Below are positions 6,596 to 40,980 of a stretch of DNA of 64,000 bases, piece after piece (the stretch's first letter is position 1; every line of letters begins with the position of its first letter). The DNA lies in assembly GCA_036504055.1 (NCBI GenBank), contig DASXVU010000048.1:124001-188000 (forward strand), given 5' to 3'. The DNA comes from Methanomassiliicoccales archaeon. Its GTDB lineage: Archaea; Thermoplasmatota; Thermoplasmata; Methanomassiliicoccales; UBA472. Made by a program: the position numbers and the translations under genes. The notes below the pieces were generated by a model that saw only the letters and a program-made list of their open reading frames with translations, was not told where the DNA came from and searched no databases.

Positions 6596-7720
6596 ATGGC
6601 AGTAAGATTGGAGCAATTGGATTCAGGATTCGATTTCGAAGCCCATAAAAGGAAGGCCATGGAAGACTATGGTAAAATCCGCCTTTTGTATCTGCAATTT
6701 TCCAATGTGGTCAAACATATCATGGAAAAGGCCTTGGCTGAAAAAAAGGTTAAAGTCAGTTCGATAGAGACACGGGCAAAAAGCATTCAAAGTTTCGGAG
6801 AGAAGGCTGGGGAATCGTCAAAGAATAACCCAAACCAACCCAAATATGCCACACCGATGAAGGATATTAATGATATGGCAGGGATCAGAGTCATAATATT
6901 TTTCCCAAATGATATAAAAAGAGTGGACGATTGTATAAGGACTGAGTTCGGCGTCGAAAAATATGTGGAGCATTCCTCTTCGAAGTTTCAGGAGGAGCAA
7001 GGGCACTTTGGTTATCAAAGTAAGCATTTTATAATTCGTCTAAAGAGTCGACGAACCGTTCTTCCGGAATATCGACCATATAAGGACCTGAGAGCCGAGA
7101 TCCAGGTTCGAACGGTCCTCCAACATGCATGGGCTGAGATAGAACATGATATCCAGTACAAGTCACCAACTAACATTCCTGAGGAACTGAAGGGGCGGTT
7201 TTCGGAATTGGCGAAAGTGCTAAATAACGCAGATGATGAATTTCAAGACATTCAAAAGACAGATGACATTTTACGGACAACGGCTCGGGCATCTGTAAAA
7301 CTTGGTGATTACGATCAGGTCGAGATCACTCCGGATTCTCTTAGAACATATCTTAACAAGCGTTTTGGTTCAGAGAATACCAATATTGACATTTTTTATG
7401 ACCAGGAAACAGATGTCTTACACTATCTCGGTTTCTCTAACTTGGGACAGGTAGAAGAATGCATAAAGGGTAACGATAACGACAAGATAAGCAGGTTATT
7501 GAATTCCGGAAGGTTAATAGATAATCAAAAGGTCCGATTTGAGGATGCGTTGATTGCTGCAATGGGGGAGTCATATCTGAAGGATCATCCTTTGGCATCA
7601 AAGACCTTTTTTCAAGGTGATGTCAAGAGGAAGATCAAGATCTTGAAAGAGAACAATATGGTCGTTGGTTCCTATCGCCCTAAGAACCTTGATTCCGAGC
7701 AAGATCACTTGGACCAATGA
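6596..7720 (+). CDS. RelA/SpoT-domain (alarmone synthetase-like) protein
   Basis: The N-terminal 240 residues form a RelA/SpoT nucleotidyltransferase domain, which moves pyrophosphate from ATP to a guanosine (or, in toxic relatives, to other substrates). Diagnostic motifs are DINDMAGIRVI (about residue 91), GYQSKH (about 137), and EIQVRTVLQHAWAEIEHDI (about 166-184). No HD hydrolase, TGS or ACT domain is present, so it is a small-synthetase type. The C-terminal 130 residues are unassigned. Base composition is lower in GC than cpgS, consistent with transfer. It is convergent with a TIR gene. It could be a stress synthetase or a toxin of the toxSAS/CapRel kind. Confidence 0.85.
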   Translation: MAVRLEQLDSGFDFEAHKRKAMEDYGKIRLLYLQFSNVVKHIMEKALAEKKVKVSSIETRAKSIQSFGEKAGESSKNNPNQPKYATPMKDINDMAGIRVIIFFPNDIKRVDDCIRTEFGVEKYVEHSSSKFQEEQGHFGYQSKHFIIRLKSRRTVLPEYRPYKDLRAEIQVRTVLQHAWAEIEHDIQYKSPTNIPEELKGRFSELAKVLNNADDEFQDIQKTDDILRTTARASVKLGDYDQVEITPDSLRTYLNKRFGSENTNIDIFYDQETDVLHYLGFSNLGQVEECIKGNDNDKISRLLNSGRLIDNQKVRFEDALIAAMGESYLKDHPLASKTFFQGDVKRKIKILKENNMVVGSYRPKNLDSEQDHLDQ

Positions 7721-7854
7721 ACATTGCTCTTCATGGCTCGTGCCGGGATTCCAGCAGCCATAGAGTGATAGGGTATGTCCCTGGACACCACCGACCTGGC
7801 CGCAAACCGAACCGTCGCCGGCATATACACCTTTATGATCGTCCATGAAATCAT

Positions 7855-8388
7855 TCATAGCAATGGAGGGGGCAGTTCATTTTTCGATGAAGGATTGCTA
7901 ACCCTGGGCTCTCCATTTCTTGTAAGGAAGTACAACGTCAACACTGCAACCAATCCAACCCCAGCCCCGATTATTAGGTGAAATATTGCCTGTGACGTAG
8001 TCTCATGTTCCACATAGCGAGTGAAGACGACAGATAGGGTATCGAACCCTTTCTTTGAATCCGGCTCGTCGAGCTTTATATATTCCATTCCCACCAAGAA
8101 TCCTCCAGGGGTGCTCCTGCCCACTATCAATGTAATGATCTGCTTGTTGAGGGCATAAGCGAAAGCTACCTCTTGTTGTACTATTTGGGAGGATGCGCTT
8201 GATTCGGTGCAGAGGTAAACAAGGATATCGGAGGAACGGATAGCAAGATCAAGCTTTAGCGGCAGACGCTGTCCGGGTCTTGGGTCGTCCTCGGCCATAT
8301 AGACGGATACCCCGAGCCCTTCGATCTTATCTTTAATTACTCTCGCAAGGGCCTCATCCAAATTGGAATGGCTTAGGAAGACCTTCAT
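7855..8388 (-). CDS. TIR-domain protein with C-terminal membrane anchor
   Basis: TIR domains of this type often cleave NAD+ or make cyclic ADP-ribose signals in immunity. Residues 1-125 are TIR: start MKVFLSHSNLDE, then SSDILVYLCTESS and QQEVAFAYA, whose Glu sits where the catalytic Glu of enzymatic TIRs lies. One membrane helix (about AIFHLIIGAGVGLVAVLTLY) follows near residue 140, with a short polar tail. ATG 8388 is chosen, with GGGGAT ahead; the frame is open to 8625 but the extension looks non-coding. AT-rich like its convergent neighbour. Role in defence is inferred from family and context. Confidence 0.85.
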   Translation of the reverse strand: MKVFLSHSNLDEALARVIKDKIEGLGVSVYMAEDDPRPGQRLPLKLDLAIRSSDILVYLCTESSASSQIVQQEVAFAYALNKQIITLIVGRSTPGGFLVGMEYIKLDEPDSKKGFDTLSVVFTRYVEHETTSQAIFHLIIGAGVGLVAVLTLYFLTRNGEPRVSNPSSKNELPPPLL

Positions 8389-8702
8389 TGTTAATCCCCA
8401 TGCATCAGCGCCCTCTTCCCGATTTAACTCCATCGGGCTGCGCATCACAAGGTGGTAATTATATCGGCCTTGGCCAAATTGCATGATGCCGTTCACTCGT
8501 CCCGGACACTTCGTCATGCCCTTCATAAGGTAATGACAATAGTCTGGGCAAACGGTGAAGACGATTCTGATAAGCCTAGTGGTTTCCTCGACGGTCCGGA
8601 AAAATAGGTTCATTAGCATTATCACCGAAGTGGATATGGTCTGGCACAGAAGAATGAAACAATACGGTTGTCAGTTGTATTGTTTGAAGGATTTGTCTGT
8701 TG

Positions 8703-11700
8703 CTACTTATTTCTCCTCCGTTTGTATATTAATACAACCGCTACCACCGATAGTGCAGCGATCGCCATCACTCCCAAAAAGACAGGGGTTGTATCGCTTG
8801 CATTGGCATCGCTGGTGCTGGCGATACTACCAGTCGCCTGCACGATTTTGTAATCGCCAGTAGTTGGATTGGTCGATCTAAAGATCTTGACTTGAAAGTC
8901 TCTAGGAAGAGATGAGAGCTTAATGTACAACGGGTCGCCATATAACTGGTTCACGTTCTGATCAATCGTGGCCTTCGAGCGATGAAGGATGGATTGCCCT
9001 GAAAATCCCGTTATGTCGATCTCCCAATAACTCATGGGGAACGTATCATAAATCTCGTGGGCCCTTCTGCCTGGCAGCCCGCCCTGAGCCTGCCATTCAT
9101 ATGGATCAATCACAACAAAAATCTCATTCCCGACCTGAAAGCGATAGATATCCATCCAAACCTGCCAGGTATTGTCTCCAAGCAACCCCATCCTGATTTC
9201 ACCGACCATCAATTCCAGCTTATCGCTCTTCAAAATGGGAATTGCAGGAGGAGCCACTTGCCACTTCCGTATTGAAGGATCGAGCTTCATGATGAGCTTG
9301 TTGAACACATTAAATTGGGTGGAATCAATATTCCTTGCCAAGGCCAATCGCTCCCGACCATATTCTCTTAGTTTGGAAGCCATCTCGGATGGCGATTTCG
9401 ACCCCTCGAATTGTGGAAGTTTCATAGCCGCTCCCCACATGTACGTTTCGTAACTCATCGCAGCGCAGAAATATGCCTGTGCCTCAATGTCGAGGACAAA
9501 GGCCGCGAAAGGATTGCAATAGAACGAAGGTATACCGGTCGCCTCCGCACATAATCTCGAGAGAGAAGAGAGCTTGTTCATCACCCAAGCGGACAACGTT
9601 TGGGCTTTGAGGAGCTGTTCCTTCACCTCCTCCAATGCCATCACCTTGCTTACTGCCTGGATGAACTTTATTGGTGCCGTTGCGGCATACATCACAGTAC
9701 CAAATGCATATGTAACCATGCCATGCACAGCAAGGGTGGCTCCAAGCAATTGCTTCCCAACAAGTCCAAACAAGCCATCTCCAAGGAATACCCAATTGAC
9801 TACTTTACTCACAATCAAATCTGCCAGGCCATTAACTCCAGCGTTGACTCCAGCATTCACTACAGCCGTGGTTAGTTCTTTAATAAACACAGAATGATCT
9901 TGTTGCTCGGTATCTCCATTAACTTTCAATTCTAGGCCGGATATTGTTTGACTGATAGCAAGGTTGAGACCGGCGTCTTTAAGTGTCGGCCCTGCAACCT
10001 CTAGGAAGACCCTCATCTTATTCAATGCACTTAGCCATACATACTGGGTCAATTCCTCGAGGCTAACCGAACCACTTAGAATATCCTTCCCATAATAGGC
10101 CATCGCCGAATCGATTTCGTTCATGAGGCGGTCCGAGTGCATCTTTTTCAGCTCAGTGTTATATGCCTTACCTACATCCAGAATGACTGATTCTCCAAAG
10201 CTGGATATTGTCTTCTGAATAAAATTATTATTAATTCGATCATATCTTAATTTGATAAATCCTCCCGATCCGTCGTTTAGCGGAATAAAAATATCAGTCC
10301 ATTTACCATACTGATTGCCGGAGTTCTGATATTTGATTCCCGACATAAGTTCCTTGGATTTCGATGGCAGAGTATTTACGTCGAATGCGGGTGCGCCAGT
10401 GCCAATATCCGAGCACAAGGATGCCACTTCAACCAGGGCCATCGCACCACCGAGGACCAAATGCGTCTGATCCACCGTTGGTTCTTGCTCCATCAACGCC
10501 TGCATGAGCAGTTGTCCCAGAATAAAATAAGGATCAACGTCACTAGGAAAGCCGCGTTTCAATGAATCTAGGTATTCATCGTTGAGCGATATGCTGCCGA
10601 GCGTTTCCATCAACTGCGAGTCAATTATGAAGGTGTGCGTATCCTCTTGAACGACCTCGAGCAGTCCCCTGGGAACCATTCCCTGCTTAGAATTGGAGAA
10701 CTTGATTGACATCTCATATAGAACGTTCCCTATCGTTAGACCTTCAAGAACTTCACGTCCAGAGGTCGAAACCTTAAGCGATCCTGGTAAAAGATAGGCA
10801 AGGAATGTCGGATCCTTCGCATTGTATTTATCGATAATTGCATTTGCATCATTGTGATTCTGGACCATGCAATTAATTTCATAATTTAGACCGTTTATGA
10901 CTACTCGATCTAACGCAACGCCTATTGGCACATTGGCATCGACCTTTGCCAAGGTTTCCGAAGATTTTAACCCTTCTAGTTGAGAATTGTACGCGCTGAC
11001 CTGATAATAATATGTCTGCCCAGATACAACATTTGAATCAGTGTACGAATTCACATTAAAAGTTGCATATGGTGTATTTCCTTCTCCACCGCTTGAAAAT
11101 CCTCTGTATATCTTATATCCAAGAATAATGGAACTCCCGGAAGACGGAGTATCCCAAGTTAGGAATATTTGATTGTTTGAAACCGTTGCCCTGAGATTCT
11201 GTATAATAGAAGGTGCGACGTTATTAGGACCGCCGGCAGTAGCAGACACCTCTGATGAGTATGGTCCTTCGCCGAAAGAGTTGAACGCCTTGATCTTGTA
11301 ATAATAGGTTGTCCCCGTAGTCAAAGAGTTATCATGATAGGTCAAACCTGCAGTGACAGTGTAATAGTAATCAGCGTTCTGATTGTTGCTGGTCGTAGAC
11401 CAGTAAATATTGTACCCTTGAATTGACGAACTACCAGAAGCAATTGGTACGTCCCACGACAGGACGATCTCGGCTTGATTTGGAGTTGGGACGGCATTGA
11501 AGTTTATGGGTTCCGAAGGGCTGTTTGAAGGATCTATGGTTGTGCCCATCATCAGTCCATAGAAAATGTCTCCACTTGCAGGGAAATTCGAGTTAGAATA
11601 TGCATGCCCCCTGATTGTGGTGGGAGTCCCCTGTATCCAGTTCTGATTGCCCACGGTCGGTGCTACCAGTCCTTGGAATGTTATCGAGGTAAGAGCGGTA

Positions 11701-21058: not shown

Positions 21059-22495
21059 TCAAACACCTTTCCATTTTCTCCTCACCACAACGATAAATGC
21101 GATCATCGCAGCAGCCAGGAGCGCCACGACTCCGATGAGGAGGGCTGGGACGTCGTTCATCGGGGACGCCCTCGCTCCATTGTAGACGTTCCCGTACATC
21201 TGGGATGAGCCGGTCACCAGGGTTCCCACTGTACAGTTGTGGAAGACGTTGTTGGTTATGGTGGTATCCTGGCTTCCCTGGTTGGCCGTGATCCCGTATG
21301 CCCAGCCGATGACTGTGTTGCCCTCTATGATGTTGTGCGTGGATGTGCCTCCAGATGCGGAGACGATTATGCCGTAGTTCGATCTCGATCCTGTCATGTC
21401 CGCAACCGTGTTGTTGCTGATGTTGAACAAATTGCAATTGACCCCGGCGAAGGCCGTCTGCGAGAGCGTTCCGATGTTGTTCTCGGTTATCTGGCATGAA
21501 GTGGTGTCGGTACAGTAGATGGCGGCCCCGTAGCTGGCGGTGTATCTCAGCCAATTCTGACTTATGATGGAGTTGCTGCTTTCGGACAGGTAGACGAACT
21601 CACCGAACGCCCCTTCCATGGTGTTGTGCGTTATGACGATGCCCTCATTGGGGGCATAGCCTGAGATAGGGTAGGAGGTGATCACCGGGTTGGGGACGTT
21701 CTGCCAGGTCCTGGCCTCGGTGAAACGGCAGTTCGATATGGTCACGTGATTGGCCGGTTCCAGGTCGATCGATGACATGGAACAGGCGGCGATCGAGCAG
21801 TTGTCGATGAGGATGTCCGAGGACGCCGTCGTGCGCTGCTCGCCGAAGGCAATGCCGCTGCCGTAGTTGCCCAGCTTGCCCGAGCCCCGGTTGTCACCGA
21901 TGTCACGGATCCACGAATCCCTGACCGTGCAGTGCTGGCTGTTGGCCATATAGACTCCCTGGCCGCTGATGATGTCATGGATGTAGACGTTCTCCACCAC
22001 GCAATCGACCGCATCCAGGAACGATATTCCCCGGATGGTGTCCCCGTATGACTGGTTGGTCCGGTTGCCGTCGATCTGCAGGTCGCTGATGGTGATGCCG
22101 CTGGGCCGGGCACCATCCGGATCGGTCGATATCATGATGACCGCCTCGTTCAGTCCGCGATGTGCTATCAGATTGGAGCTGTTGCCCATCCCCCTGATCG
22201 AGGCGCCGGACGTGTGGATGGTGCTCTGAACGTCGTAATTGCCGGCCTCGATCCAGATGGTGCCATTGTTGCTGGAGTCGATCGCCTGCTGGATGACCTC
22301 TCCGGCGATCGTGCCGCTGATCTCGATCTGGGAGGTGTCCATGTTCACCGCCACGGTCTCCCCGGTCGACAACCGATAGATGGTGTAGTCATGAGAATTG
22401 ATGTCGGAAGGCTTGGCCACACCTAACAACAGGATGCCGGCGCAGACGACCGCGAACACCAGGACGATTGTCACTAATCTTCGCAAGTTTAACAC
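21059..22495 (-). CDS. Membrane-anchored right-handed beta-helix protein
   Basis: A 478-residue exported protein: signal helix (about 5-28), pectate-lyase-like parallel beta-helix (about 65-440), membrane helix (about 448-470) and RRKWKGV tail. It is a clear relative of the two tandem proteins at 36879 and 38863, sharing GQGVYMANSQHC, YGSGIAFGE, SMSSIDLEPANHV and GYAPN. Those two lack the anchor. No catalytic residues of pectate lyases are evident. GTG 22493-22495 overlaps the GAAGG ribosome site; TTG at 22484-22486, 8 nt from GAAGG and just after the stop of the upstream frame, may be the real start. Confidence 0.85.
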   Translation of the reverse strand: MLNLRRLVTIVLVFAVVCAGILLLGVAKPSDINSHDYTIYRLSTGETVAVNMDTSQIEISGTIAGEVIQQAIDSSNNGTIWIEAGNYDVQSTIHTSGASIRGMGNSSNLIAHRGLNEAVIMISTDPDGARPSGITISDLQIDGNRTNQSYGDTIRGISFLDAVDCVVENVYIHDIISGQGVYMANSQHCTVRDSWIRDIGDNRGSGKLGNYGSGIAFGEQRTTASSDILIDNCSIAACSMSSIDLEPANHVTISNCRFTEARTWQNVPNPVITSYPISGYAPNEGIVITHNTMEGAFGEFVYLSESSNSIISQNWLRYTASYGAAIYCTDTTSCQITENNIGTLSQTAFAGVNCNLFNISNNTVADMTGSRSNYGIIVSASGGTSTHNIIEGNTVIGWAYGITANQGSQDTTITNNVFHNCTVGTLVTGSSQMYGNVYNGARASPMNDVPALLIGVVALLAAAMIAFIVVVRRKWKGV

Positions 22496-22950
22496 CTTCG
22501 GGCCCCCATTGCGATAACGGACGAAAGGCCCGCTCTGGTGCCCAATGGTCCCGTCATCGGTATCGTGACCTTGAATTCGGTCCTGCCGATGGTTATGGGG
22601 GCGATCTCCTCGCCTCTGCCGTTCCCATTGGGATTGGATCCAATTGAAAGCGGATCGGTAAAATCGCTTCCTGAATGGCTGGCCAGGCTCGGATTGCGGG
22701 CCGTGGTAAGGTTAGTGCTTCTGCTGGATGCCGGGGAGTAGGCGCTGCCGTTTCTCCCATTATTGCCTGGGCTGATGGTAAAGGTCTGTCCCCAATACGT
22801 GCCCACCGCAACATTACTTGATTGGTTATGGATCGTATTACCCAACACGGAAAATAACTTAATAAAGAAATGGTAGACCACGTCAAACCGCGGTGGTCCT
22901 ATTTTGCGCATATTGAATGTTGCTGCACATCGCTTTGTCATCTCTTTCAT
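22489..22950 (-). CDS. Possible small gene upstream of beta-helix gene
   Basis: A 153-codon frame with ATG preceded by GAGGATGAG, ending just at the start of the beta-helix gene, as in an operon. The product is basic at the N-terminus and Ser/Asn/Gly-rich later, with no signal peptide, membrane helix or recognised domain. Overlap geometry recalls the small-gene/beta-helix pairs at 36674-40008, but I see no sequence similarity to those small proteins. It may be non-coding. Confidence 0.3.
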   Translation of the reverse strand: MKEMTKRCAATFNMRKIGPPRFDVVYHFFIKLFSVLGNTIHNQSSNVAVGTYWGQTFTISPGNNGRNGSAYSPASSRSTNLTTARNPSLASHSGSDFTDPLSIGSNPNGNGRGEEIAPITIGRTEFKVTIPMTGPLGTRAGLSSVIAMGARRC

Positions 22951-23191
22951 CAACTCATCCTCATCTCTCTCGGAAACAGGCAGGCACTCAGTTCACACTC
23001 CCTAATGATTCAAAGGCCCCAGAACGAAGAAACAATCGATCGGTCTGGATAGAACACCGATGGTGTCAAATCCTGATCAAGGATCGTTCGTTTTAAAAAT
23101 CAGAATTATCGGACAAAGTAGAAATCGAAGTTATATGATTTCCCACCAGCGGTTGAGAAATTAGGGCACCATTTGAATTGGTGTTTTTGGA

Positions 23192-34134: not shown

Positions 34135-34449
34135 TTCCAGAAGCCATTTAATCGATCTGGCTAACTTGGGTTCATTCACTTCAGTAACTGTCCCTTTTCA
34201 GGACCTTCATGAAAGACCCAATAAGTTATTCGAACGATCCATCTTCCTTTGCTATCTATTGCTTACTCGTGAAAAATGTCCTGGAACATGTCGATCTCGG
34301 CTTGGCAATCTCCCGGTTTTCCTGATCCTGGACATTCACGATCGGCTTCCCAAGTTCATTATCAAATATCACATTCTGATGCTAATTTTCTTTATTAGGA
34401 ATCACGTGTGAGCTTACCTGGGGCATCCTCTAGGGAAGATTGGGATATC
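34135..34449. other. 315-bp gap
   Basis: No convincing gene. An overlapping frame (34118-34411) has no support. The right end carries GGGATATC directly before the next start. Confidence 0.5.
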
Positions 34450-36117
34450 ATGAATCATAAGAAGCTCACCGCCTTGCTGGCAACGCTCATGCTCTTATCA
34501 CCGATTGTCACGTTGACAGTTGGATCGATGGTCGGCACGGTGTCCGCTGAGGTAAGCGGCAGTTTCGAATATTCACTCAACAGCGATGGAACGGCGGTTG
34601 AGATCACTAGATATAACGGCACAGGTACAAGCGCGGTCATTCCCAGCGTGATCGCCGGCAAGCCAGTCACCTCCATCGGGGAGCGGGCTTTTAGCAATTG
34701 TACTGCCTTGACGGCCGTGACCATCCCCAACAGCGTCCTGACCATCGGAGCGGGCGCTTTCCAGAACTGCTATTCCTTGACAGCCCTGACAATACCGAAC
34801 AGCGTCTCAAGCATCGGGGAGGGGGCGTTCTACGATGTCGGCCTTCGTTCGGTCGTCATCCCGAACAGCATGAAGGTCATCGAGGACAACCTGTTCTTCG
34901 ACTGCTATTCCCTGACCTCGGTGACGATTCCAGTCAGCATAACCAGCATCGGGGACTATTCGTTCGGCAACTGCTACCAGCTGAGCAGCATCATTATTCC
35001 CAAGAGCGTCACCAACATAGGCGCCGGTGCATTCTCTAACTGCGGCCTGAAGACGGCGGTCATACCGGAGAGCGTCAGCGCGATCAAGGATCGCTGCTTT
35101 CAGGGCTGTTATGCCCTGACCTCGGTGACCATACCCGTCAGCGTCACAAGCCTTGGCAATTATTCTTTCAACAATTGCTATGCACTGTCTTCCATCACGA
35201 TCCCCAGCAACGTAACGAGCCTGGGGGATTACCTTTTCAGTAACTGTTACAAACTGAAATCGGCGGCCATTATGGGAAGTGTCTCGAACATAGGGGCTGG
35301 CGCTTTCTCAAACTGTTACGAGCTGGCCGCGATCACCTTCTATGACAACGCACCCTCCATGGGGGTTGGCTGGAAGACCGGATGCGGGGGAAATTTGACG
35401 GTCTCTTACTACCAAGGAGCGACCGGATTCACCGACCTGTCATGGAGCGGAGTGATACTCCATCAAATGACGTCGCCCAACGCCCCCCGGAACCTTACCG
35501 CAGTGACTGGAGACAGCAGAGTGACCTTATCATGGAAGGTCCCGAGCGGCCCCCTTGGCATTTCCACCGCGAGCTATCTTGTCTATCAGAACGATATCTG
35601 TGTCGAGCGGGTGGTCGGTACCTCGGAGAAGATCAGCGGCCTGACGAATGGATTGTCCTACAACTTCACCGTCGTCCTCACCAACACAAAGGGAAATCTG
35701 CTTAATTCCACCTCCATCGTGGTCAGGGTGCCCATCATAGGGGTCGCGGTCGATGGGACGGCCAACGATATCGACGGAAACCCGATTGCGAACGCCACCG
35801 TTACTCTAAGCAACGGCACGGTCGTGATGACGAACGAATACGGGCAATTCATGATCCTTGGGGTCAAGGCAGGCAATTATAGTCTCACCATTGCCAAGGA
35901 CGGTTACTCGACCATCACGCAGAACGTGACGGTCACATCCGAAAAGAATGCCGATCTCGATTCCGTCGTCCTTCAGGCTATCGATCCTCCCGCCAGCAAT
36001 GGGTCGGGTTCAGGTGACCTGACCCTGATCATCGCCGCCGTGGCCATAGCGGCCGTCATCGCCGTATACTTCCTTTTCTTCCGTAAGCCAAAGGCTAGCG
36101 GCCGGCGCAAGAAGTAG
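34450..36117 (+). CDS. BspA-type LRR surface protein with Fn3 and CarboxypepD_reg domain
   Basis: A 555-residue exported protein: signal (about 5-35), about nine BspA-like leucine-rich repeats (about 60-340; consensus LTSVTIPxSVTSIGxxAFxNC), a fibronectin III domain (about 355-440), a carboxypeptidase-regulatory-like beta-sandwich (about 443-520, TANDIDGNPIANATVTLSNG), and a C-terminal membrane helix (about 527-546) with basic tail. ATG 34450 follows GGGATATC and is preferred over 34408, which would add 14 polar residues ahead of the signal. Probably an adhesin or receptor displayed on the cell surface. Confidence 0.87.
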   Translation: MNHKKLTALLATLMLLSPIVTLTVGSMVGTVSAEVSGSFEYSLNSDGTAVEITRYNGTGTSAVIPSVIAGKPVTSIGERAFSNCTALTAVTIPNSVLTIGAGAFQNCYSLTALTIPNSVSSIGEGAFYDVGLRSVVIPNSMKVIEDNLFFDCYSLTSVTIPVSITSIGDYSFGNCYQLSSIIIPKSVTNIGAGAFSNCGLKTAVIPESVSAIKDRCFQGCYALTSVTIPVSVTSLGNYSFNNCYALSSITIPSNVTSLGDYLFSNCYKLKSAAIMGSVSNIGAGAFSNCYELAAITFYDNAPSMGVGWKTGCGGNLTVSYYQGATGFTDLSWSGVILHQMTSPNAPRNLTAVTGDSRVTLSWKVPSGPLGISTASYLVYQNDICVERVVGTSEKISGLTNGLSYNFTVVLTNTKGNLLNSTSIVVRVPIIGVAVDGTANDIDGNPIANATVTLSNGTVVMTNEYGQFMILGVKAGNYSLTIAKDGYSTITQNVTVTSEKNADLDSVVLQAIDPPASNGSGSGDLTLIIAAVAIAAVIAVYFLFFRKPKASGRRKK

Positions 36118-36271
36118 GTCTGCAGTCTTTCATGTTGGATAGATATGTCAAATTATCTTGACGCTATTGTCTCTCGATCCAGATCATGCCCCGGCCAATG
36201 TCATTTCGACGTTCAACGATCTGGAACAGCAGTTTCCCTTCTCTAAAGTCGTCGATCGTTCGAGCGGGAGG

Positions 36272-36673
36272 CATATTATAAGAAAATGGCGATTTCATAT
36301 GTTAAATTATTATCAATATTATGCATATTTTCAGGAACAAAACGCTATTCAGCGATTATTATCATGATTATTTTGTATATAATTTTGTTTATATCGTATT
36401 ACCCAATTCCCTTCCTTAAGAGTAGTTCAAAACGGAAGAGCCCTCACCGAGGGAATGAACTCTCTGCTGCCAGAAAAGTGACTCTGACGGATCAGTTGCA
36501 ATCAACATCTCGGGATCGATTTTTTTGATCCAGATGTTCAGGCTGCATGCCCATTGAGCGATTCCTTCCGATCGCGTTTAAACACGAGCCAGCCCCGATG
36601 CGGATAAACGTATCGTCCGGGTAACTGGCTCCGTTCAGTCTGCCCAGTGAAACCTAACAAGGAGCTGATAAGC
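36272..36673 (+). promoter_or_regulatory. Structured leader A (promoter plus conserved hairpins)
   Basis: About 400 bp, aligned with leader B at roughly 90% identity over the first 130 bp. TATATAA at 36376-36382 predicts transcription from about 36403 and a 5' UTR of about 270 nt. Hairpins: CCCTC/GAGGG (36441-36453); AACATCT-cg-GGATC/GATCC-AGATGTT (36504-36538); GCGAT/ATCGC near 36558-36575; and GAGCCAG/CTGGCTC (36586-36592, 36625-36631) enclosing CGATGCG/CGTATCG (36596-36615). All recur in leader B, the last with a compensatory base-pair change. It ends in GGAGCTGAT before the small gene. A short hydrophobic frame (36286-36528) also lies in it. Confidence 0.7.
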
Positions 36674-36886
36674 ATGAGAATGGGATCTTCATCGAAGAAG
36701 GACATTCGCGGGACGGGCATCATGATGGCCGTCCTTGTTGCGGCTGGACGTGCTGCGACCGTCGATCTGTCCGTTTTGAACAGCGTATCGAACAAATCGA
36801 AGGACCGGTCCTGGAAGATCGGCGATCAGGCGATGAAAAAGACCGGAAATACCCCTGCCATGACCAGAGGCTGTTTGCATGAGTAA
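36674..36886 (+). CDS. Small conserved protein A, coupled to beta-helix gene
   Basis: A 70-residue protein starting at ATG 36674 behind GGAGCTGAT. It aligns along its whole length with small protein B at 38654 (core AATVDLSVLNSV, KDR-WK-GDQAM). Most base differences between the two are at third codon positions, so it is truly coding. The protein is basic, with a mildly hydrophobic stretch (about 14-30) but no clear membrane helix or signal. Its stop overlaps the beta-helix start by 8 nt, implying translational coupling. I know no family for it. It may be a regulator, chaperone or partner of the exported protein. Confidence 0.75.
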   Translation: MRMGSSSKKDIRGTGIMMAVLVAAGRAATVDLSVLNSVSNKSKDRSWKIGDQAMKKTGNTPAMTRGCLHE

Positions 36887-38036
36887 ATTCCAGTTCAAAA
36901 GTAGGTCCTTGACGTTCCTATCCTTCTTGTTTGTGGGAGCGTTGATCGGTATGTCTTTCATGGGTGCTGTGCCCGTCCAAGCGCTTTCGGCTCCGGTGGG
37001 CGATGGAACGTCGGTCTCCGTGGCCTACACCATCTACAAGGATGGCAGCGGTTACACCTGCGCAAAGAACAGCGCGACCGGGGCCATCGATTATAGGAAC
37101 ACCAACTCGAAATGGGTGATCCAGAAGGCCATCGACAAGCTTTCGGGCGGTTATATCCTGATCAAAGCCGGAAAATATGACATAACCCAGACCATCTACA
37201 CCAACAAGGTGTCGATCATCGGCGAGGGGAACGCGACGGTGTTGGACGCCACCACCGCCTGCACTGGTGCGGTCATTAGGGTGTGCAATAACTACTGGAC
37301 ACTAGATTACAGATACATGTCCGCACGCCCCAACGGGATAACCATCGGCAACATGCAGATCGACGGCAACCGTGCGGTCCGGACCAATGGATTGCTGGAA
37401 GGGGTCGGCTTCATAAACTGCCTCAATAGCCACATGGTCAGGATCTATGCGCATGACATCATCGGCGGGCAGGGACTGTACATGTCCAACTCTCAGTACT
37501 GTACCATCGTCGATTGTCAGATCTACAACGTCGGAGACAACACCGCGGCCCATTACGGATCGGGCATAGCGTTCGGCGAGGCATCTGAGATCAAGGTCCC
37601 GTGCTCGTACATCACGATCGACAACTGTCTGATATCCAGGGCCTCGATGTCATCGATCGACCTGGAGCCGGCCAACAACGTGGTCATAAAGAACTGCGTT
37701 TTCCGTGAGGCTACCACCTGGAAGGGATATCCCACCCCGGTGATCACGGAATACGCGGTATATGGATACGCTCCAGCGAACGACTACATCACCGTGACCG
37801 GATGCAACGTCAACGGTGCGTTCAGTGAGTTCGTCGTTCTGACCCCGAGCAGCCACTCGGTGATCAAGAACAACGTCGTCACTCAGACCGCGGGCACGAC
37901 CACGGCGATATACTCGACCAACTCGCACTCGAACACGATCACCGGTAACGTGATCAAGACCGCCTCGCCCAGGCCGATCCAACTCGTGGGCTGCACTTCG
38001 TGCACGGTCTCGGGCAACACGATCCTGGCCAGATGA
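36879..38036 (+). CDS. Secreted right-handed beta-helix protein (copy A)
   Basis: A 385-residue exported protein: signal (about 10-33, ending near VQALS), then a pectate-lyase-like parallel beta-helix to the C-terminus. Key segments are GGYILIKAGKYDITQ, IIGEGNATVL, NGITIGNMQIDGN, GQGLYMSNSQYC, YGSGIAFGE and SMSSIDLEPANNV. It has many Cys (CAKN, TACTGA, VCNNY, GCTSCTVSG), so disulphides are likely. No membrane anchor, unlike the relative at 21059. It is a tandem paralogue of copy B. Overlap with the small gene upstream and a terminator downstream define a two-gene unit. Catalytic residues are not evident. Confidence 0.87.
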   Translation: MSKFQFKSRSLTFLSFLFVGALIGMSFMGAVPVQALSAPVGDGTSVSVAYTIYKDGSGYTCAKNSATGAIDYRNTNSKWVIQKAIDKLSGGYILIKAGKYDITQTIYTNKVSIIGEGNATVLDATTACTGAVIRVCNNYWTLDYRYMSARPNGITIGNMQIDGNRAVRTNGLLEGVGFINCLNSHMVRIYAHDIIGGQGLYMSNSQYCTIVDCQIYNVGDNTAAHYGSGIAFGEASEIKVPCSYITIDNCLISRASMSSIDLEPANNVVIKNCVFREATTWKGYPTPVITEYAVYGYAPANDYITVTGCNVNGAFSEFVVLTPSSHSVIKNNVVTQTAGTTTAIYSTNSHSNTITGNVIKTASPRPIQLVGCTSCTVSGNTILAR

Positions 38037-38103: not shown

Positions 38104-38129
38104 CCCTCTCTCTTGATCCAGCTCTTTTT

Positions 38130-38244
38130 TCAAGACCTCGTCCTCATTCCATAGCTCATTCATCGGATCAAGGCAACGGCCGCCGGGATCACGAAGAAGG
38201 TCAAAACCCGGATCAGTGCCGAGACCATCGAGTAGGCGAAATAG
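38130..38244 (-). pseudogene. Broken 3' end of the downstream membrane-protein gene
   Basis: About 38 codons that align with the C-terminus of the membrane protein at 40138-40707 (DYFAYSM-SALI-VL--F-IPAA-AL), including the position of the natural stop (38130-38132). A premature TGA stands at 38160-38162 where the intact gene has TGG. The rest of the gene is missing, and sequence switches at about 38245 to leader B. It is the scar of the tandem duplication. Confidence 0.85.
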
Positions 38245-38250
38245 TCGGAG

Positions 38251-38653
38251 CATACTATAAGAAATTGGCGATTTCATATGTTAAATTATTATCAATATTA
38301 TGGATATTTTCAGGAACAAAACGCCACTCAGTGATTATTATGATGATATTTTTCTATATAATTTTGTTTATATCGCATAACTCCAATTCCCTTATTCACG
38401 AGAGTTCAAAACGGAAGAGCCCTCATCGAGGGCAACGGACTCTCGGCCGTTAGAGCAGAACTCTCACGGATCAATTGCAATCAACATCTCGGGATCCATT
38501 TTTGATCCAGATGTTCAGGCTGTATGCCCCATTGAGCGATTTCTTCCGATCGCGTGTAAATACGAGGCAGGCCCCGGGACGATCACTGAATCGTCCGGGT
38601 ACCTGCCTCCGTTCAGTCTGTCCAGTGCAACGTAATGAAAGGAGCTGATAAGC
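38251..38653 (+). promoter_or_regulatory. Structured leader B (promoter plus conserved hairpins)
   Basis: Second copy of the leader, 403 bp. TATATAA at 38355-38361. Hairpins match leader A: CCCTC/GAGGG; AACATCT-cg-GGATC/GATCC-AGATGTT (38483-38515); GCGAT/ATCGC; and GAGGCAGG/CCTGCCTC (38564-38571, 38602-38609) enclosing GGACGAT/ATCGTCC (38577-38596) with a 6-nt loop. In the outer stem the fourth pair is G-C here and C-G in leader A, so both sides changed together. It runs to GGAGCTGAT before small gene B. Confidence 0.7.
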
Positions 38654-38863
38654 ATGAGAATGGTATCTTCATCGAAGGACATGCGCGGGATGGGCGTCAC
38701 GACGGCCATCCTGGTCGCGGCAGGACGTGCTGCGACGGTCGACCTGTCCGTTTTGAACAGTGTTGCGAACAAAGCAAAGGACCGCGCCTGGAAGCTCGGC
38801 GATCAGGCGATGAGAAAGTGCATCGGCGGAGATGCCTCCGCCATCAACAGAGGCTGTATCTAA
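38654..38863 (+). CDS. Small conserved protein B, coupled to beta-helix gene
   Basis: A 69-residue paralogue of small protein A, with the same ribosome site (GGAGCTGAT, 4 nt before ATG). The N-terminal (SSSKDMRGMG) and core (AATVDLSVLNSVANKAKDRAWKLG split here only for reading) regions are conserved; the C-terminus varies but both end in RGC plus two to four residues. The stop TAA shares its last A with the ATG of the beta-helix gene (TAATG), an overlap different from copy A yet again coupling translation. No known family. Confidence 0.75.
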   Translation: MRMVSSSKDMRGMGVTTAILVAAGRAATVDLSVLNSVANKAKDRAWKLGDQAMRKCIGGDASAINRGCI

Positions 38864-40008
38864 TGACATTTTTCAGGTTCAAGGGCAGGTCCCTGACGTT
38901 CCTGACCATCATGTTCGTGGGAGTTTTGATCGGAACATCGGTCTTGGGTGCGATGCCGGCCCAAGCGGCGACGATCGCCCCGGTGGGGAATGGAACATCG
39001 GTCTCAGTGGCGTACACTATCTACAAGGACAGCAGCGGTTACACCTGTGCGAAGAACTGCGCCAACGGTGCCATCGATTTCCGTAACACGAACTCGAGAT
39101 GGGTAATTCAAAAGACCATCGACAAGCTGTCGGGCGGTTACATATTGATCAAGGCCGGAACCTATGCGATTACCCAGACGATCTACACCAACAAGGTGTC
39201 GATCATCGGTGAGGGTAACGCAACCATCCTGAAGGCCAGCGGCAATGTGGGAGGCGGTATGATCAAGGTGACCGATGGCTACTGGACACTGGACTACAGG
39301 TTGATGTCGAGTCGCCCGAATGGAATAACCATCGGCAATCTGCAGATCAATGGCCTGGGCGGTGGATCGATGAAAGGGGTCGCCTTCATTGATTGCCTCA
39401 ACAGCAAGATGGTCCGCATCTATGTCCATGACATATTGGCCTGTCAGGGGCTCTACATGTCCAACTCGCAATATTGTAGCATCTCCCGTTGCCAGATCTA
39501 CAACGTCGGGGACAACACAGCAGCCCATTACGGATCGGGAATAGCTTTCGGTGAGGCGTCATCGACGAAGGTCGCTTCCTCCTATATCACCATCGATAAC
39601 TGCCTGATAAGCAAGACATCGATGTCCTCGATAGACCTGGAGCCGGCCAACCACGTGACCATCACCAACTGCGTGTTCCGCGAGGCCGCCATGTGGAAGA
39701 ACTACTACAACCCGGTGATAACGGAGTATCGGGTGTCAGGGTATGCAGCAAATGACTACATCACAGTGAGCGGATGCAACGCCAACGGCGGATTCAATGA
39801 ATTCATCGTTCTGACGCCAAGCAGCCATTCCGTGGTCAAGAACAACGTCATTACGCAAACCCGCGGTTCGTGCACCCCTATCTACGTGACCTACTCGCAA
39901 TACGACACGATCACCGGAAACAAGATCACGACCGCTTCGAGCCAGCCGATCCACCTTGTGGGTTGCAGTTCATGCACTGTCTCGGGCAACACGATCATCA
40001 AGCGGTGA
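38863..40008 (+). CDS. Secreted right-handed beta-helix protein (copy B)
   Basis: A 381-residue exported protein, homologous end to end with copy A: signal (about 10-33, ending near AQAAT), TIYKDSSGYTCAKN, GGYILIKAGTYAITQ, GQGLYMSNSQYC, YGSGIAFGE, SMSSIDLEPANHV, final SCTVSGNTI. The frame is open to 38635, but ATG 38863 is set by homology to copy A and by the TAATG overlap. Differences cluster in turns (for example LGGGSMKG against AVRTNGLLEG), as expected for surface loops under diversifying use. It is followed by a strong terminator. Confidence 0.87.
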   Translation: MTFFRFKGRSLTFLTIMFVGVLIGTSVLGAMPAQAATIAPVGNGTSVSVAYTIYKDSSGYTCAKNCANGAIDFRNTNSRWVIQKTIDKLSGGYILIKAGTYAITQTIYTNKVSIIGEGNATILKASGNVGGGMIKVTDGYWTLDYRLMSSRPNGITIGNLQINGLGGGSMKGVAFIDCLNSKMVRIYVHDILACQGLYMSNSQYCSISRCQIYNVGDNTAAHYGSGIAFGEASSTKVASSYITIDNCLISKTSMSSIDLEPANHVTITNCVFREAAMWKNYYNPVITEYRVSGYAANDYITVSGCNANGGFNEFIVLTPSSHSVVKNNVITQTRGSCTPIYVTYSQYDTITGNKITTASSQPIHLVGCSSCTVSGNTIIKR

Positions 40009-40123: not shown

Positions 40124-40137
40124 CTATTCATGACCCT

Positions 40138-40707
40138 TCATGATTTTGTCTTCATCCCGTAACGCATCCATAGGACCAAGGCGATGGCCGCAGGGATCCC
40201 GAAGATGATCAATACCCATATCAGCGCCGAGATCATCGAGTAGGCGAAATAGTCAAACGACCAGGTAGAGATCGCGGCGTTCCAGTTGCCATCGACGTAT
40301 ATCTTGATGCAGAAGGCTATGAAGACCAGGAATGAGAACGCGTTTCCCCCGCTGGATGACTTGGAGCGGGGGCCGAACATGTGATACTCCTGCTTCCGCT
40401 CGTCCAGCAGTCTCTTCCACCATTGCCATACCGCAATTACTGCCACGATGATCGGGATCCCGATCAGAAGGATCTCCCAGAAGGCCAGATTTATCAAGAA
40501 GTTCACGATGTTCCCCATGGTCCAGAGACCAAGGGTCAATGGTATCATCCCGGTCGACTGAGCGTTTCCGATGAACCACAGGAAGACAAGGACTGCCCCC
40601 ACAAACGCCAGAACGACTCCGACCACGAATAGCATGAACAGCCTCCAGTGATCCTTGATGAATCTTCTCCAATCCTCAGAACCCTTTCCCGACCTAGTCT
40701 CAAACAT
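40138..40707 (-). CDS. Membrane protein of unknown function (intact parent of remnant)
   Basis: A 189-residue protein with four predicted membrane helices (about 20-43, 58-80 with 82-100, and near 128-145 and 155-178) and a basic loop WQWWKRLLDERKQEY. ATG 40707 is fixed by a very strong AGGAGGAAA ribosome site 3-4 nt upstream; the frame is open to 40809 but the extra 34 residues lie upstream of that site. Its C-terminal 38 codons are duplicated in broken form at 38130-38244. Family unknown. Confidence 0.75.
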   Translation of the reverse strand: MFETRSGKGSEDWRRFIKDHWRLFMLFVVGVVLAFVGAVLVFLWFIGNAQSTGMIPLTLGLWTMGNIVNFLINLAFWEILLIGIPIIVAVIAVWQWWKRLLDERKQEYHMFGPRSKSSSGGNAFSFLVFIAFCIKIYVDGNWNAAISTWSFDYFAYSMISALIWVLIIFGIPAAIALVLWMRYGMKTKS

Positions 40708-40980
40708 TAATTTCCTCCTACGGATTTGACCATTTCTGCTATAATATTCGGTTGGATTTATTGGTTGGCTAAAAATATAATATTTCACTGATTTTGTCAA
40801 TTCGTTCAATAGGTCGCAATTAGAGAAGATTTTGGGGGTGGACTTTCACATCTATGATATCCGACCCATTGTGTCGGGGGAATTCAGGTTCAGGCGTTTT
40901 CAACGTCGCAGTTCTACTGATGGCCATGATGATCCTAGAATTTGCCACATAACTATTCATCCTTGTATCCGCATGTATCG

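Follow-up and report, generated by a model that had tools for sequence, protein, structure and literature searches.

Genomic locus and the four copies

The window analysed, a stretch of 64,000 nt, comes from a 2.66-Mb archaeal genome that encodes methyl-coenzyme M reductase and archaellins, from which the host is taken to be a methanogen. Two leaders, A (36272-36673) and B (38251-38653), lie where they had been predicted and can be aligned end to end. When the whole genome was searched with leader A, four copies rather than two were recovered: A and B in the window, and copies C (G000:C38:59110-59515) and D (G000:C45:89816-90194) on other contigs. The order of elements is the same in all four: a promoter block of about 125 bp, a leader of about 255 nt, a Shine-Dalgarno (SD) sequence, an open reading frame (ORF) of 68-72 codons, and a gene for a secreted beta-helix protein. 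Copies C and D had been missed in the original prediction, as had the covarying hairpins within the small ORF. The features in the window are collated below.

36271-36397, plus strand: promoter block A, AT-rich, with two overlapping TATA-like boxes (approx. 36376-36396) and no conserved fold
36420-36490, plus strand: 5' half of leader A, three helices or hairpins (column-shuffle z given in the text)
36420-36428/36457-36464, plus strand: helix GAGuAGUUC/GAACUCUC in the 5' half of leader A
36441-36453, plus strand: hairpin CCCUC/GAGGG in the 5' half of leader A
36467-36490, plus strand: third hairpin in the 5' half of leader A, missing from copy D
36495-36653, plus strand: 3' structured domain (R1) of leader A, the 157-nt domain of the fold tests
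36586-36592/36625-36631, plus strand: GAGNCAG/CUGNCUC stem of R1, copy A
36660-36664, plus strand: SD sequence AGGAG of small ORF A, 9 nt 5' of the ATG, kept in the four copies (GGAG)
36674-36886, plus strand: small ORF A (70 codons), of archaellin N-terminal origin
36700-36772, plus strand: covarying hairpins within small ORF A, with double changes in 7 of 26 pairs
36700-36704/36768-36772, plus strand: closing helix GGACA/UGUCC in small ORF A
36710-36721/36724-36735, plus strand: hairpin 1 of small ORF A
36737-36745/36751-36759, plus strand: hairpin 2 of small ORF A
36866-36870, plus strand: SD-like AGAGG for beta-helix gene A, among the final codons of the small ORF
36879-38036, plus strand: protein A, a secreted right-handed beta-helix of 385 aa with signal peptide (PF13229, 2.5e-16)
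38250-38376, plus strand: promoter block B, 91% identity to A
38474-38632, plus strand: R1 of leader B
38654-38863, plus strand: small ORF B, sharing the hairpins of A
38863-40008, plus strand: secreted beta-helix protein B (PF13229, 2.9e-13), its TAATG start overlapping the small ORF

The 118 bp directly 5' of copy B (38129-38246) repeat positions 40137-40254 at 81%, and the source of this repeat is the 3' end of a minus-strand gene (40138-40809); A and B are therefore read as a tandem duplication of the module together with the beta-helix gene and a fragment of the neighbour. The upstream neighbour of copy A (34408-36117) encodes a surface protein in which BspA-type leucine-rich repeats are combined with a fibronectin type III and a carboxypeptidase-regulatory-like domain. 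Copy C is flanked by two paralogous, polysaccharide flippase-like multi-pass membrane proteins (L014:3295-4803 and 7209-8729; G000:C38), which suggests a surface-polysaccharide region. Copy D starts about 120 bp past a tRNA-like gene (L015:3631-3698; G000:C45; read by eye), possibly an insertion site.

Known families and homologues were searched for at several depths. Against the 4227 Rfam families at their gathering thresholds the leader was unmatched, the sole match in the window being a tRNA elsewhere, and permissive thresholds returned chance-level matches only. When the leader DNA was compared with 198 relatives, the matches were all short and of a chance-like kind (best E 3e-4 over 22 nt). 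No convincing copy of R1 was found in overlapping draws of 299 genomes of the class (one weak match, E 0.05), 389 of the phylum and 21 of the family; a sister species of the same genus was absent from these sets, so a genus-level family is possible. In GTDB r220 an exact 18-mer had six matches, in unrelated phyla and roughly as many as chance would give; viral contigs contained none. A distant blastn search of plasmid and phage collections returned no homologue, and a literature search found nothing on the leader module.

Fold and covariation of the leader and the small ORF

Promoter blocks are 71-91% identical among the four copies, and the TATA-like stretch ATATAATTTTGTTTATA (approx. 36377-36393 in A) is invariant in all of them; the box, from which a 5' UTR of 270 nt had originally been predicted, is compatible with one of about 255-270 nt. 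The block has no fold by the column-shuffle test (z = +0.8) and served as the negative control. For the 5' half of the leader the evidence of a fold is weaker than for R1, with a column-shuffle z of -2.0 over the four copies and of -3.6 over A, B and C (D being without one hairpin).

The 3' domain R1 of copy A comprises a closing helix GUUGCA/UGAAAC, the P2 hairpin, the pairing CAGGCUG/CAGUCUG, a GCGAUU hairpin and the GAGNCAG/CUGNCUC stem. The base-pair exchange described in the original prediction is exact: the outer stem reads GAGCCAG/CTGGCTC in A and GAGGCAG/CTGCCTC in B, a C-G pair having been changed to G-C on both sides. Over the four copies this pair varies, with C-G in A, G-C in B, A-U in D and a U.U mismatch in C, which makes two compensatory states past the first and one mismatch. 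The inner stems proposed for A (CGATGCG/CGTATCG) and B (GGACGAT/ATCGTCC) both pair, and the AACATCT-cg-GGATC hairpin is retained with a loop that differs between A and B. All four copies can form the inner stems and the P2 hairpin, with a shifted register in C (P2) and in A (P5 tip), and the P1 helix carries one mismatch in A and one in B.

Leaders A and B have minimum free energies below those of dinucleotide shuffles (z = -2.8 and -4.0, respectively), and the consensus energy of R1 over the four copies gave a z of -6.0 that was matched by none of 300 column-shuffled alignments. In a random-mutation test, in which the observed number and kind of changes were placed at random starting from each copy, the real relative folded better in every one of the 12 directions (z = -2.2 to -5.0). 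Cells of the pair table were paired in 92% of cases, as compared with 28-36% when the partners were slid, and four pairs were changed on both sides. In tree-based null simulations, in which each branch received its observed substitutions, 92% pairing was reached in 0 of 2000 and four double-change pairs in 48 of 2000. From A, B and C alone the column-shuffle z for R1 was just -2.9; among 13 control windows in the beta-helix genes the average was -0.1 and the minimum -3.0, and the claim for R1 accordingly rests on the four copies and on the pair counts. Two copies by themselves are weak evidence for a conserved fold, and C and D are needed.

The strongest covariation of the module lies in the small ORF, outside the interval of the original prediction. 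For copies A to D in turn, the arms of hairpin 1 are GGACGGGCAUC/GAUGGCCGUCC, GGAUGGGCGUC/GACGGCCAUCC, GGAUGGGCGUU/GACGGCCAUUC and GGACGGCUGUC/GACAGCUGUUC, with a single internal G.G mismatch in A, B and C. Those of hairpin 2 are, for A, B and C in turn, GUUGCGGC/GCUGCGAC, GUCGCGGC/GCUGCGAC and UCCGCAUC/GGUGCGGA; D has two mismatches among the same eight positions. The seven double-changed pairs were equalled in none of 500 shuffles and none of 2000 tree-based nulls (null maximum 6), the real level of paired cells was likewise reached in 0 of 2000, and the column-shuffle z was -4.7. Folding energy relative to synonymous resampling was modestly low and uneven (z = -0.7 to -2.8), so that the argument is carried by covariation and not by stability. 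Because the hairpins continue through the archaellin-derived ORF, the structured unit is larger than the leader.

Claims of RNA covariation should rest on sufficient depth and power and be set against a phylogenetic null (PMC11234323); the evidence here comes from four paralogues of one genome, and the phylogenetic null was approximated by the tree-based simulation. On sequence evidence the element is a candidate cis-acting structured leader, in that compensatory changes preserve a fold upstream of a same-strand gene in four paralogues.

That the RNA has no function, the copies being recent duplicates kept alike by duplication or gene conversion and the hairpins being due to chance, is improbable. 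Every copy is indeed a paralogue within one genome, A and B are a tandem duplication, and their synonymous difference is lower in the small ORF (0.21) than in the beta-helix genes (0.49), as would be seen under conversion. Conversion does not, however, make matched changes in the two arms of hairpins in divergent copies (68-84% small-ORF identity); the tree-based nulls reached the observed share of paired cells and the double changes of the ORF in 0 of 2000, and the promoter block, which is shared as well, is without a fold.

A separate non-coding RNA, processed out of the leader or transcribed through it and acting in trans with the beta-helix genes as mere neighbours, is little more than a slim prospect. 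It would suit the compact 3' domain, which is better kept in D than the adjoining parts. The hairpins nevertheless run on into the small ORF, to which the start of the next gene is coupled; the element stands in sense orientation before a beta-helix gene in all four places, and a terminator is absent at the end of the domain.

Archaellin origin of the small ORF and its probable coupling to the next gene

A profile of the four small ORFs matched archaellin N-termini at 1.7e-10 in this genome and down to 6e-6 in relatives. At the DNA level the small ORFs are 62-67% identical to two tandem archaellin genes over approx. 190-210 nt, from near the SD sequence to about codon 60, and reading frame and start region agree (archaellin MKMRTSWKKDKRAEMGVG, copy C MRMGSSWEKDKLRMGV). 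None of the four ORFs matched Pfam or NCBIfam, the archaellin model (PF01917) included, whereas the archaellins of the same genome match PF01917 at 1.9e-27 and 1.7e-26. The small ORFs thus share DNA and frame with these archaellin genes and differ from them in having lost the hydrophobic helix and in being without the globular part; the archaellin genes, for their part, have no R1 leader. Read at the level of sequence, the small ORF is descended in frame from the first approx. 60 archaellin codons and is itself not an archaellin.

Many of the hairpin pairs are broken in the archaellin genes, which indicates that the hairpins arose after the divergence; inheritance of the hairpins from archaellin was rejected on the same ground. 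Descent of the leader from an archaellin 5' UTR was also rejected, since detectable homology begins only near the SD sequence. The small ORF thus offers an example of a coding sequence, the archaellin start, that has shed protein features and acquired conserved RNA hairpins with its frame still open, and the intact archaellin genes in the same genome allow the origin of a regulatory RNA from coding DNA to be studied by comparison.

The three codon positions of the small ORF change about equally, with a dN/dS of 0.39-0.62 as against 0.22 in the beta-helix genes. All four frames are open, and the indels keep the frame. In neutral simulations (substitutions only) four frames all stayed open in 5% of cases, so the open frame was not accepted as proof of translation, to which the frame-keeping indels add support. 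The simplest reading is that the ORF is kept open for translation while its RNA structure is constrained more than its peptide sequence; the small protein is probably dispensable and the ORF a translational platform. It is very unlikely that the ORF encodes a functional peptide (e.g., an archaellin-like membrane or chaperone peptide) to which the RNA fold is secondary: the frames open in 4/4 copies, the frame-keeping indels and the dN/dS would agree with such a peptide, and the flat codon-position changes, the lost hydrophobic helix, the absence of a Pfam/NCBIfam match and the reduction of the ORF to a remnant of about 35-36 codons before paralogue E (see below) speak against it.

The ATG of the beta-helix gene overlaps the end of the small ORF in A, B and D and follows it after a 2-nt gap in C, and an SD-like AGAGGYTGY stands among the final ORF codons in all four copies, 8-9 nt 5' of this ATG. 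Small ORF and beta-helix gene thus have the layout of a predicted coupled pair, with an overlapping or close stop-start and an internal SD sequence. The ATGA overlap retained with the ORF remnant before paralogue E (described below) also favours coupling. Of 14 overlapping gene pairs tested in Haloferax and E. coli, 13 were strictly coupled, and base pairing inside an upstream ORF can control initiation at the gene that follows (PMC6728339). The present pairs resemble those in their ATGA/TAATG overlaps (2-nt gap in C) and in the SD sequence within the upstream ORF; they differ in that the upstream ORF is the degenerate beginning of an archaellin gene, carries covarying hairpins and is apparently not a functional partner gene. 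Comparison of the beta-helix protein with solved structures gave no sequence match.

Proposed function and possible exchange of the module

With moderate confidence, the module is considered a lineage-specific cis-acting structured leader, made up of promoter, folded 5' UTR and coupling ORF, that precedes secreted beta-helix genes. The mRNA would be transcribed from the conserved TATA element; ribosomes would start on the small ORF and reach the beta-helix gene through translational coupling, either by termination-reinitiation or by opening of the hairpins, and the folded leader would set the number of entering ribosomes or the lifetime of the mRNA, perhaps in response to a protein, an ion or temperature. 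Several points count against this explanation: the small number of copies (four paralogues in one genome), the U.U mismatch in C, the P1 mismatches in A and B, the modest folding energy of the ORF, the z of -3.0 in one beta-helix control window, and the fact that the paralogues E and F manage without the leader.

A structured leader RNA that belongs with the small gene and with the gene of the secreted beta-helix, as originally proposed, is now better supported; its possible designation as a new riboswitch or attenuator class was not borne out, neither a wider family nor a conserved switch having been found. A riboswitch, in which the 3' domain would be a metabolite or ion aptamer that switches access to the SD sequence of the small ORF, has a very low probability: the domain is multi-branched, highly conserved, placed directly before the SD sequence and provided with conserved unpaired stretches, yet it is without an Rfam match, a homologue was seen in no other searched genome (most described classes occur in many species), and the downstream genes give no metabolic clue. 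A conserved SD-sequestering helix was not found either: the helix between the 5' end of the leader and the SD sequence was rejected as a switch, since it did not exceed shuffles in A, B and C and was strong only in D, and the SD sequence is partly paired in the predicted ensembles with a partner that is not common among the copies. Attenuation, by which ribosome progress on the small ORF or the U-rich P2 loop would decide whether the polymerase reads on into the beta-helix gene, is hardly to be expected, since, for all the translated-looking ORF that overlaps the hairpins and the 5-7 U in the P2 loop, no terminator with a U-run was seen in the stretch from the ORF hairpins to the beta-helix start (judged from folds and sequence, archaeal terminators being poorly predictable), a regulatory codon run is absent, and the U-stretch sits inside a UTR loop.

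As regards the favoured cis-acting leader, long 5' UTRs are known from a studied methanogen: in Methanolobus psychrophilus 24% of mRNAs have a 5' UTR of >150 nt, for which post-transcriptional roles have been proposed (PMC5378194). The present leaders are similar in exceeding 150 nt, in belonging to a methanogen and in having a structure with a proposed effect on translation or stability, and differ from the individual leaders of that organism in that one fold is common to four operons and extends into a coding ORF. Like the surveyed archaeal RNA motifs, e.g., flpD and crcB (PMC2864571), the element is a candidate structured RNA obtained by sequence comparison; unlike these, it lies outside the Rfam families and was seen in one genome only. 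The module is of interest as a folded leader common to related and to barely related secreted-protein genes. Few archaeal cis-regulatory RNAs have, to our knowledge, been described.

The module behaves as a unit, as is seen from copy D, whose R1 is its best-kept part although the downstream protein is barely related. The protein of D aligns with that of A at 28% over just 107 aa and has no paralogue in the genome; its 3' domain is 86% identical to that of B and 81% to that of A, and the promoter block (71-76%), the 5' half (56-64%) and the small ORF (70-74%) are less well kept.

A more elaborate account of the module's history is possible but doubtful. According to this account, a regulatory RNA module recruited the 5' part of an archaellin gene, which lost its protein role, gained covarying hairpins and was joined to an unrelated folded 5' UTR, giving an exchangeable expression leader for different secreted beta-helix proteins in which translation of the decayed ORF would work an RNA switch.

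Neither E (G000:C38:42708-43886) nor F (window 21059-22495, minus strand), two paralogues akin to the A-B-C protein, has the R1 leader. Before E lies a small-ORF remnant of about 35-36 codons, MKLMKMGLSWKDRDMRAGNGTKAIGDKSTKKGGCYT (L072:2092-2199, G000:C38; translated by eye), which retains both ends and the ATGA overlap, lacks the hairpins and stands under a different leader. The GTG start of F is overlapped by an upstream ORF of 154 aa (22489-22953, minus strand), a similar coupled layout of unrelated sequence.
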